Assembly (NCBI RefSeq): GCF_014836715.1
Contig: NZ_JACSQI010000006.1
Coordinates: forward strand, 62,001-126,000
DNA: 64,000 nt
Source of the DNA: Escherichia whittamii
Lineage (GTDB): Bacteria; Pseudomonadota; Gammaproteobacteria; Enterobacterales; Enterobacteriaceae
Direction: 5' to 3'
The first letter of the stretch is position 1; every line of letters begins with the position of its first letter. The translations under genes were made by a program, and so were the position numbers. Below are positions 21,317-26,095 of the stretch, one piece after another. The notes below the pieces were generated by a model, which worked only from the letters and a program-made list of their open reading frames with translations, did not search any database and was not told where the DNA came from.

Positions 21317-21469
21317 CTGTTCCCTCTCCACCGAGAAATTTCCCCATTAGACCATATTTATTTTACGTCAGGCGCGCAAAATGAGAGCACGGTTCACATG
21401 ACGACGTCTTATAAATGTTATCAATGAGATGTTTTTTGAAACACTATTTCATTATCAGGAGTGTACAAC

Positions 21470-22360
21470 GTGACCGAGCAAACACAGTTTTCTGGCGTCT
21501 GGTGTCCTTCCATCACACCGATGGATAAAGACGGGAATGTAGACCTTAACGGACTGAAGCAGCATCTGCAGCGACTCACTGACGCTAACATCGATGTGAT
21601 ATTGCTAATGGGAAGCATTGGTGAGTTTGCTTCCTTCACCCTGGAAGAGAGGCTCATGCTTATCCGCGAAGCGCGTTCCATGAGCACATTAAAAATGGTG
21701 GCCAACGTCTCGTCCACCTGCACACATGATGTACTGGTGATGGCGCAAGAAGCGTATCGCGTTGGGTACGATGCGGTGATGATCCTCCCGCCTTACTACT
21801 ACGGCCAGACGGCGAAGCAATTATTAAGCTATTTTCGCCATCTGGGTCGCGAATTACAGGGCAAATGGTTCGCATATAACTTCCCGGCGCGGACCGGTTG
21901 TGATTTAACCCCAGACCTGGTTGCCACACTGGCGAGTGAGTTTCCTGAGTTTGCAGGAATTAAAGATACCGTCGATTGCCAGTCACACACCCGCAGCATG
22001 ATTCAGGCAACTCAGGCTGTGCGTCCTGATTTTGCGGTGCTTTCGGGGTATGACGAATATTTCATTCCTAATCTGCTGGCCGGTGGCGCGGGGATAATCT
22101 CTGGCTTAAATAACGTCATGCCGGAGCTGTTTGTTGAAGCACGCGAAGCCTTCAAGAATGGCAATCTCGCTGCCCTACATGAAATTCAGCAACAGATCGG
22201 CACTTATATGTCCATCTACGCCATCGGTGAGGATTTTGTCACCACCATTAAGACGGTGGTATCACGTAAGTTTGGTTACTGCACAGGAGTGTCGCGCAAT
22301 GTCGGTGGAGAGTTAACAGAAAGCGAATGTCGGACGATTGATGAGGTGTTTGTTATTTAA
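21470..22360 (+). CDS. DapA-family aldolase/lyase, probable 2-keto-3-deoxygluconate aldolase
   Basis: A 296-residue (beta/alpha)8 enzyme of the DHDPS/N-acetylneuraminate lyase family, not present here in K-12. The Schiff-base Lys165 is in FAGIKDTVDC and the catalytic Tyr136 in AYNFPARTG; the N-terminal GSIGEFASF replaces the GTTGES of DapA and resembles the GSxGEF of YagE/YjhH-type 2-keto-3-deoxygluconate aldolases. A GTG at 21461 abuts AGGA at 21457-21460 with no spacing, so the second GTG at 21470 (9 bases of spacing) is the better start. It is convergent with the ketodeoxygluconate permease gene kdgT, which favours ketodeoxygluconate or a similar 2-keto-3-deoxy acid as substrate. The exact substrate is inference. 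Confidence 0.8.
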   Translation: MTEQTQFSGVWCPSITPMDKDGNVDLNGLKQHLQRLTDANIDVILLMGSIGEFASFTLEERLMLIREARSMSTLKMVANVSSTCTHDVLVMAQEAYRVGYDAVMILPPYYYGQTAKQLLSYFRHLGRELQGKWFAYNFPARTGCDLTPDLVATLASEFPEFAGIKDTVDCQSHTRSMIQATQAVRPDFAVLSGYDEYFIPNLLAGGAGIISGLNNVMPELFVEAREAFKNGNLAALHEIQQQIGTYMSIYAIGEDFVTTIKTVVSRKFGYCTGVSRNVGGELTESECRTIDEVFVI

Positions 22361-23658: not shown

Positions 23659-24279
23659 TTATTTTTTCGCCGCGAAACGTGCCGCAGCTTCGTCCCAGTT
23701 CACCACGTTCCAGAACTCTTTAATGTAGTCTGGACGACGGTTCTGGAATTTCAGGTAGTAAGCGTGTTCCCACACATCCAGGCCCACAATCGGGAAGCCG
23801 GAAGCGCCAGAAATGGCTTCGCCCATCAGCGGGGAGTCCTGATTAGCAGTAGAAACCACCGCCAGTTTATCGCCTTTTTGCACCAGCCATGCCCAGCCGG
23901 AACCAAAGCGGGAAGCTGCCGCTTTCTCAAATTCTGCTTTGAAGTTATCAACGGAACCGAAATCACGTTCGATAGCCGCTTTCAGATCGCCCTGCAGGGT
24001 GGTGCCTTTTTTCAGACCTTTCCAGAACAGGCTGTGGTTAGCGTGACCGCCAGCGTTGTTGCGCAGAACGGTTTTTTTGTCTGCTGGCAGCTGGTCCAGT
24101 TTGGTGATCAGCTCTTCAACCGGCAGGTTGGCGAATTCTGGCAGGCTTTCCAGCGCCGCATTGGCGTTGTTGACGTAGGCCTGATGGTGTTTGGTGTGGT
24201 GGATTTCCATGGTCTGCTTATCGAAGTGCGGTTCCAGGGCATCGTAAGCATACGGCAGGGATGGCAGGGTATAGCTCAT
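23659..24279 (-). CDS. sodA: SodA, manganese superoxide dismutase
   Basis: SodA converts superoxide to oxygen and hydrogen peroxide in the cytoplasm. The 206-residue protein has metal ligands His27 (MEIHHTKHH), the His in NHSLFW, and Asp and His in [23 protein letters not shown] with GSGWAWLV and Gln-type residues around it fits the Mn form. The start [14 protein letters not shown] was chosen, with two extra in-frame codons ahead left out. The upstream region has a Fur-like box, fitting known iron control of sodA, which also responds to SoxRS and ArcA. Confidence 0.98.
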
Positions 24280-24349
24280 ATTCATCTCCAGTATTGTCGG
24301 GCGGCCGATTGTTAATGCCGCGTAAGCAGTTGGTTCATTATAGTTAATT

Positions 24350-24437: not shown

Positions 24438-24563
24438 CACTTAATGCCGTGATTGCCAGTAAATCGGCAACGGCGGCAACAGGCGAAAGGTTAATCGACT
24501 ACACAATTTTTACACTCATCTCGTCGGAGATGTGACGCGACGAAAAATGATGAGGATAAAAGA

Positions 24564-25136
24564 ATGAGTAACGCGATTATGATGGGGATTTTTTGGCATT
24601 TGATCGGCGCGGCCAGTGCAGCCTGTTTTTACGCTCCGTTCAAAAAAGTAAAAAAATGGTCATGGGAAACCATGTGGTCAGTCGGTGGGATTGTTTCGTG
24701 GATTATTCTGCCGTGGGCCATCAGCGCCCTGTTACTACCGAATTTCTGGGCGTATTACAGCTCGTTTAGTCTCTCTACCCTGCTGCCTGTTTTTCTGTTC
24801 GGCGCGATGTGGGGGGCAAACATACTCCGCAAAACCTTTGTGATGCAGGTAAACCCCGATGCTCACGCAGAGTATCAGCGTCGGCATAACCCGATCTGGC
24901 CGGAACTGGAAGCTGTATTGAAATCCCACGGCGCGCATAACTACGCCATCTATCTCGATAAAGCGCGAAATTTGCTGTTTGCCACGGTAGAGATTGAATC
25001 TGAAGAATGGTGGAATGCGGTTGCCAGCACTGAAGTCTGCCAACGTTGGAGGAAGCATATGCAGGACGTGATGCCCGCTAATCCGGATAACAGCCCGGTC
25101 AGTAGCGAGCTGCAAGACGTGTTTTACATGGCATAA
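24564..25136 (+). CDS. RhaT'-'RhaM fusion: remnant of the deleted rhamnose locus
   Basis: One uninterrupted 190-residue frame. Residues 1-84 are the N-terminus of the L-rhamnose/proton symporter RhaT ([18 protein letters not shown] ... LFGAMWG), about three of its ten membrane segments. From residue 87 or 88 the sequence is L-rhamnose mutarotase RhaM ([14 protein letters not shown] ... [12 protein letters not shown]), complete except for its initiator. The join lies at about 24813-24826. In K-12 rhaT and rhaM flank rhaR, rhaS, rhaB, rhaA and rhaD, about 7 kb, all absent here. The RhaM part has several changes from K-12 as I recall it, including Arg to Trp in ESEEWWNAV and Trp to Arg in CQRWRKHM, so it may be drifting. 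The transporter part cannot transport. Whether the mutarotase part folds or acts is unknown. Confidence 0.9.
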
Positions 25137-25230
25137 TCCACTGCGGTGCCGGATCCCCCTCAGACACCGCGATGACAATTGATTAATATAGATTTCGCTG
25201 ACGCAATTTATCCAACATCTCCCGGGTCAA

Positions 25231-25971
25231 TTAAAAACGCCAACTCACTCCGGTGACAAAAGTAAAACTTTCATTACGGTCAATCATTGGGCTGTTAGTG
25301 ATCTCTTCCGGCAGCTCGCTGTATCCGGCACTCGCCATTAATACGACGTGTTCTCCGATGGGGTATTTTGCCGTCAGGCTGACATAAGGCACCCAGGCAT
25401 CTTGCGCGGTATAACTCGCCAGACCGCTGCGACGAGACTCGCTCTCTGAAATGCCATAGTAATAGTCACTGAAATTCTCGTCATAATAGAGAACGCCAAG
25501 AGCAGGTGTCAGCGACAGGCGACCTATCTGCATTTTGTGGAATAACGATAACTCACCCACCCAACCGTTACTGTTATCCAGAACATCAGCCGCCGCAGAA
25601 GCCTTCACGGTCCCCCAACGCTCATGGTGATACCAGGCAACACCCGCCATTGCCGTGCTGTCACGCTTATCGAGTTGTTGCATAGCATGGTCGTCATTAT
25701 CAGCAGGATCAAATTCCAGTGGCATCCAGGATGCCGTCAGGCTAAGTTCATTTTTTTCACTTTGCGACAGAATAAAACCTAACGTGGTCTGGCGGACATA
25801 AAAAGAATCGCTCTCATAACTGATCAGCGGAATTGCTTTGGTATTTTCATTATAACCGCGATAAGGCGATTCATTATAAACTGCGCCAGTACCAACGGAT
25901 AATTCTGCAGCAGTTGCACTTGCCATAAAAGGCATAAAAAATAACGCCACAATATTTCGGTTAATTAACAT
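25231..25971 (-). CDS. yiaT: YiaT, MipA/OmpV-family outer-membrane protein
   Basis: A 246-residue protein with a signal peptide (MLINRNIVALFFMPFMASATA, then AELSVG) and a beta-barrel body ending in Phe (TGVSWRF), as outer-membrane proteins do. It belongs to the MipA/OmpV family; the related MipA scaffolds murein enzymes. The role of YiaT is not settled. The start was set at MLINRN rather than three codons upstream. It is divergent from the LysR-type gene yiaU, the likely regulator. In K-12 it neighbours the yiaK-S/sgb operon; here its other side abuts the rhamnose remnant. Confidence 0.93.
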   Translation of the reverse strand: MLINRNIVALFFMPFMASATAAELSVGTGAVYNESPYRGYNENTKAIPLISYESDSFYVRQTTLGFILSQSEKNELSLTASWMPLEFDPADNDDHAMQQLDKRDSTAMAGVAWYHHERWGTVKASAAADVLDNSNGWVGELSLFHKMQIGRLSLTPALGVLYYDENFSDYYYGISESESRRSGLASYTAQDAWVPYVSLTAKYPIGEHVVLMASAGYSELPEEITNSPMIDRNESFTFVTGVSWRF

Positions 25972-26095
25972 GTCCGACATTCCATTTTAAATTAAGATAA
26001 AAAAGAGTCGGCATAGTAATGCTTACAATTTCTCCGGTGCAAGATTCATATTTATATAGTAATATATAAAATTATATATAAATTGGACTGTTGCG

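Follow-up and report, generated by a model that had tools for sequence, protein, structure and literature searches.

Loss of L-rhamnose use has been described elsewhere in the genus Escherichia. Passages of Ooka et al. 2015 (PMC4700944) describe loss of the rha operon and absence of xyl in E. albertii, with rha loss recorded for all 34 study strains. E. marmotae strains vary in rhamnose fermentation, as stated in an excerpt of PMC11546641, and an excerpt of PMC10132054 reports that rhaT expression depends on RhaS. A paper on cryptic clade II (PMC7716201) contains no word starting with 'rhamn'. Among the titles and abstract openings found in our literature search, none describes a fusion of RhaT and RhaM, and a search on RhaM active-site residues returned no paper on E. 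coli RhaM.

Here, we analysed such a fusion in Escherichia whittamii, in a window of 64,000 nucleotides (contig NZ_JACSQI010000006.1, positions 62,001 to 126,000 of the forward strand). In the list of open reading frames, window positions 24564-25136 form one open frame with an ATG start and 190 codons, encoding 190 amino acids. The predicted protein runs from residues 1-84 of RhaT through the dipeptide Ala-Asn into RhaM, the first Met of which is read as Ile. Pfam assigns residues 1-93 to RhaT (PF06379) and residues 89-189 to a complete rhaM domain (PF05336). When the seven K-12 Rha proteins were compared with the window by tblastn, RhaT 1-84 aligned to 24564-24815 and RhaM 1-103 to 24822-25130, and RhaR, RhaS, RhaB, RhaA and RhaD had no match within the window. 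The in-frame joining of 84 RhaT residues to RhaM, proposed in an earlier note on this DNA, is thus borne out by the reading frame, the Pfam domains and tblastn. Against TIGR02625, the NCBIfam model for rhamnose mutarotase, the fusion scores 176 bits, which is above the cut-off of 99.6. The best of the RhaT NCBIfam models gives 175 bits, far below its cut-off of 509; of the full-length RhaT L-rhamnose/proton symporter with its 344 residues, residues 1-84 alone are left. Hydrophobic segments of this part lie around residues 3-24, 36-65 and 67-88. We are highly confident that the fusion is a non-functional deletion scar, an ordinary remnant of gene loss. The features of the locus are collected in Table 1.

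Table 1. Features of the rha remnant and its immediate surroundings, in window coordinates.
Feature	Position	Strand	Basis
sodA, left neighbour as in K-12	23659..24285	-	ORF list, K-12 comparison
Stretch of the sodA-rhaT intergenic region, including the largely conserved sequence upstream of the former rhaT	24450..24563	+	Ten-sequence alignment
rhaT codons 1-84, encoding three hydrophobic stretches of sufficient length to form membrane helices	24564..24815	+	tblastn, 97.6% to K-12 RhaT 1-84; Pfam RhaT
rhaD-rhaM spacer remnant GCAAAC, read as Ala-Asn	24816..24821	+	Base-by-base comparison with K-12 and G011
rhaM remnant, start ATG changed to ATA, open to its normal stop	24822..25136	+	Pfam; codon comparison
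Inversion boundary: match to K-12 4.093 Mb stops at 25137, match to 3.751 Mb starts at 25212	25138..25211	.	K-12 comparison
yiaT, right neighbour, adjoining rhaM through the inversion	25231..25980	-	K-12 comparison; same neighbour in G010 and G011

To describe the junction we compared the window base by base with K-12 and with G011, a close relative that matches the window genome (G000) at 97% in one nearby stretch and at 96% in another. In G011 all seven rha genes are open, and the right neighbour is yiaT as in the window. This comparison fixed the breakpoint between rhaT and rhaM, which the earlier note had proposed to locate against K-12, at 24815/24816. Up to 24815, the window is identical to the rhaT side of G011 across the 30 bases compared; base 24816 is the first departure from rhaT, and the spacer remnant begins there. 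Microhomology had been suspected around 24813-24826. It is not there: in the comparison with K-12 and G011, the rhaM side fits the G011 rhaT side only as GG-G around 24813-24816, with no continuous run. G011, with its intact operon, has 7,012 bp between the two junction points, a length that is therefore missing from the window genome. Relative to G011, the missing part comprises rhaT from codon 85, rhaR, rhaS, rhaB, rhaA and rhaD. Both parts of the fusion match the intact parental locus of G011 and K-12, in the same order and on the same strand.

The search for the missing genes was extended to the rest of the genome. K-12 DNA covering rhaA, rhaB, rhaS and rhaR, used as one query of 4,751 bases, had no match in the window's own genome (33 of 33 first-look candidates scored), and the same was true of rhaD (one query of 814 bases, 21 of 21 first-look candidates scored). 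These two DNA searches were run without a positive control of their own; searches of the same type do recover further stretches of K-12 here, at 87-97%. By protein profile, RhaA (PF06134) is absent from the genome, with 3 of 14 control genomes positive, E. coli included. A DNA query spanning the whole operon stretch returned, among the 40 of 302 candidates scored, rhaT and an intergenic repeat only, and the family of this repeat sits between rhaA and rhaD in K-12. A copy of rhaBAD elsewhere in the genome was therefore not found by either the K-12 DNA queries or the RhaA profile. Together with the tblastn comparison of the window, these searches corroborate the loss of rhaR, rhaS, rhaB, rhaA and rhaD claimed in the earlier note, and operon loss is well supported. 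Because no copy of the missing genes was found elsewhere in the genome, the strain should be unable to use L-rhamnose.

The same results bear on the quality of the join itself. An intact operon might exist in the strain and have been lost or wrongly joined in the assembly, which is a draft of 40 contigs. However, the junction lies inside a contig of 259 kb, no run of bases is shared at the join, and private changes are found right at it; moreover, neither RhaA nor rhaDABSR was found in the genome, the completeness of which is rated at 100%. An assembly misjoin is in our judgement highly improbable.

On the 3' side of rhaM come yiaT, yiaU, yiaV and yiaW, genes with K-12 positions near 3.75 Mb, as against 4.09 Mb for rhaM. 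This order results from an inversion with respect to K-12 that spans about 342 kb. Its midpoint lies near 3.922 Mb, which we take to be close to the K-12 replication origin. The reciprocal join, ysaD-yiiG, is present in this genome as well, on a different contig (G000:C4:88.6-89.1 kb). The rhaM-yiaT join is common to G010 and G011, and at this place G006 carries part of yiaT; the ysaD-yiiG join is matched over its full length in G007, G008 and G010. At least one inversion join or a remnant of one is thus seen in G006, G007, G008, G010 and G011. Since G011 combines the join with an intact operon, the inversion would most simply predate the deletion without having caused it. Among the own-genome matches listed for frvABXR, with 40 of 306 candidates scored, there were none to these genes.

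Two further differences from K-12 were observed around these joins. Between yiiM and kdgT, at window positions 21461-22360, lies a DHDPS-family gene (PF00701) that K-12 does not have there and that reaches the cut-off of no NCBIfam model. As it adjoins kdgT, the 2-keto-3-deoxygluconate transporter gene, its position suggests an aldolase for 2-keto-3-deoxygluconate. In K-12, sgbE occupies the interval between sgbU and ysaD. On the contig with the reciprocal join, this interval holds putative genes for an AraC-type regulator, a sugar transporter and a large glycoside hydrolase (locus L132, 1568-5999, G000:C4), named from the look of their sequences.

The rhaM remnant has lost its own start codon and is altered at conserved positions. 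R63W, W77R and L103M all fall at sites where 79 of 79 other RhaM sequences agree, these being the loci from other genomes kept in a tblastn search of the fusion (the best 80 of 306 relatives). The first two correspond to the unusual changes picked out in the earlier note, the WW in ESEEWWNAV and the Trp to Arg change in CQRWRKHM, and both are indeed present. We take Y18, H22, Y41, W76 and W77 of RhaM to have a catalytic or sugar-binding role, W77 presumably being sugar-binding. Y18, H22, Y41 and W76 are kept in the window; with R63 replaced by Trp and W77 by Arg, its RhaM does not retain the full set of invariant mutarotase residues.

Private changes, defined as bases at which one sequence differs and nine others agree, were counted in ten rhaM sequences, with G011 set apart from eight other copies and G010 left out for its partial rhaM. 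The window copy has eight nonsynonymous and no synonymous private base changes; by private codons, eight are changing and one is silent. The eight other copies (K-12, G002, G004, G005, G006, G007, G008 and G009) together have nine of each, and the window differs from them with p = 0.016 (Fisher, one-sided). The rhaM of G011, which stands in an intact operon, shows seven nonsynonymous and no synonymous private changes, one of them at the invariant P12, and differs from the eight copies with p = 0.024. Eight nonsynonymous changes out of eight in the window copy do not differ from neutrality (0.157). In pairwise comparison with G011, dN/dS of the window rhaM is 0.72 over codons 3-104 and 1.28 for codons 42-104, and that of the neighbours cpxA, kdgT, sodA, yiaT and yiaU ranges from 0 to 0.07. 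Measured against K-12, the value for the window rhaM is 0.119, below the 0.172 of G011, and most of the history of the gene would thus have passed under constraint. Because the G011 copy, in its intact operon, is likewise without visible constraint, the link between fast rhaM change and the fusion is weakened. Fast change seems to be in part a feature of the clade, in which rhaM seems loosely constrained. It is the position of the changes, at R63, W77 and L103, that marks the window out from G011, though G011 too is changed at P12.

The rhaT part is little changed, with a dN/dS of 0.131 against K-12 and 0.155 against G011 and a single private change, T6M, among ten sequences. Either a recent deletion or earlier constraint on rhaT would account for this. 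The rhaT piece (24564-24815) is 98% identical to G002 and G004, as against 95% to G011, and the adjacent sodA-kdgT stretch has the opposite affinity, with 97% to G011 as against 92%. The rhaT piece may therefore stem from past recombination with an E. coli-like donor.

The frame is without a stop codon across its 190 codons, as the earlier note had stated. This says little about selection, because only about 4% of single substitutions would create a stop (approximately 4.4% for the whole fusion, 4.1% for rhaM alone). The computed chance that the frame is still open is about 72% after 8 changes and 44% after 20, and the open frame is weak evidence of selection. Since the rhaT promoter needs RhaS, and rhaS was not found, low expression of the fusion is expected.

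These observations need to be weighed against the suggestion, also made in the earlier note, that the fusion is a membrane-tethered protein still under selection. A membrane-anchored mutarotase that is made and kept, perhaps for another sugar, would be compatible with the open frame, the three retained hydrophobic stretches, the little-altered RhaT part, the largely conserved upstream region and the TIGR02625 score above its cut-off. The open frame, however, needs no selection, as most frames of this kind would still be open after eight changes. Moreover, the RhaM part has lost its own start, its private changes are all nonsynonymous, R63W and W77R strike sites invariant in every other RhaM sequence compared, as does a third change, and RhaS and the rest of the pathway are missing. 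The suggestion thus goes unsupported, and we give a selected, anchored mutarotase very little credence. That the chance deletion created a new translated membrane protein with three helices and an altered mutarotase domain, kept for a new role, appears highly improbable.

We thus favour a deletion scar, which could have formed as follows. One deletion of about 7 kb, with no real microhomology at the join, would have taken rhaT from codon 85, rhaR, rhaS, rhaB, rhaA and rhaD. A random join falls in frame one time in three, and that of rhaT to rhaM would have done so by chance. Without isomerase, kinase, aldolase and the RhaS activator, the leftover frame would have no pathway to serve, and it is probably little transcribed. 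The remnant would then drift, its private changes including the loss of the rhaM start codon and of three invariant residues.

The window genome is not the only one to have lost this locus. Among 12 Escherichia genomes, the RhaA family is present in eight and absent from the window genome, G001, G003 and G010; the rhaM family is present in ten. The four genomes without RhaA carry four different scars, and the RhaT-RhaM fusion was found in none of the 11 other genomes. In G010, the region upstream of rhaT is followed by 124 bp of rhaD and then by rhaM from approximately codon 40. In G003, the sequence just 5' of rhaT is followed by scraps of rhaR and rhaS and then by the fdhD region. In G001, sodA is followed about 50 bases on by a match to yiiG, with no match to rhaT or rhaM. 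G001 is probably E. albertii, because it is the sole genome of the 12 without xyl; the window genome has the whole xyl cluster, on which ground an assignment to E. albertii was rejected. These scars suggest that one catabolic locus has been lost repeatedly within Escherichia. Trees of neighbouring segments, from which coverage removed six sequences in the first tree and one in the cpx tree, conflict on the order of G000, G010, G011 and G003 and were not used to count events. In view of this conflict, the four scars may but need not stem from four fully separate losses.

The scar of G010 raises the question of whether the window junction arose in more than one step. An ancestor shared with G010 could already have been broken, with a later deletion making the present junction, and it is in keeping with such stepwise erosion that in this close relative the operon is likewise gone, with scraps of rhaD and rhaM remaining. 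Neither scar is ancestral to the other, however, as the rhaD piece is present in G010 and not in the window genome, and rhaT 1-84 is present in the window genome and not in G010. G011, in addition, is intact, and the segment trees disagree on the closest pair among G000, G010 and G011. We regard stepwise erosion as unlikely, yet still worth considering; it is a variant of the deletion scar and does not conflict with its main point.

Comparable fusions were sought more widely, in searches of relatives, E. coli and plasmids from which records near the window genome may have been left out. Some part of the fusion is matched in 5,373 of 5,426 E. coli genomes, and no single place covers 80% of it in any of the 5,426. 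A search of 72,556 plasmid records with 24700-24940 gave four matching records, each covering less than 80% of this stretch. In Enterobacillus tribolii and Hafnia alvei, apparent RhaT-RhaM fusions from long tblastn alignments were rejected as overhang running through a stop codon 5' of a normal rhaM.

The fusion shows that a score above the TIGR02625 cut-off can name a working mutarotase in a strain without the rhamnose pathway. It also adds to a small comparative case, in which the rhamnose operon is gone from 4 of 12 Escherichia genomes with four break patterns. When comparing the locus with the K-12 rhaT-rhaRS-rhaBADM cluster, there is a clear correspondence, as this cluster is the source locus of both fusion parts and has the same left neighbour, sodA. 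Unlike K-12, the window is without five genes and most of rhaT, and its right neighbour is yiaT instead of frvA. Natural rhamnose-fermentation defects are also reported for E. coli CC119 and O26:H11 in an excerpt of PMC10132054; whereas the window has an operon deletion and a fusion, in those strains individual rha genes carry frameshifts or in-frame mutations. With E. albertii, as described in passages of PMC4700944, the window genome shares the loss of the whole operon for rhamnose use within the genus. However, E. albertii is without xyl, whereas the window genome retains its xyl cluster.
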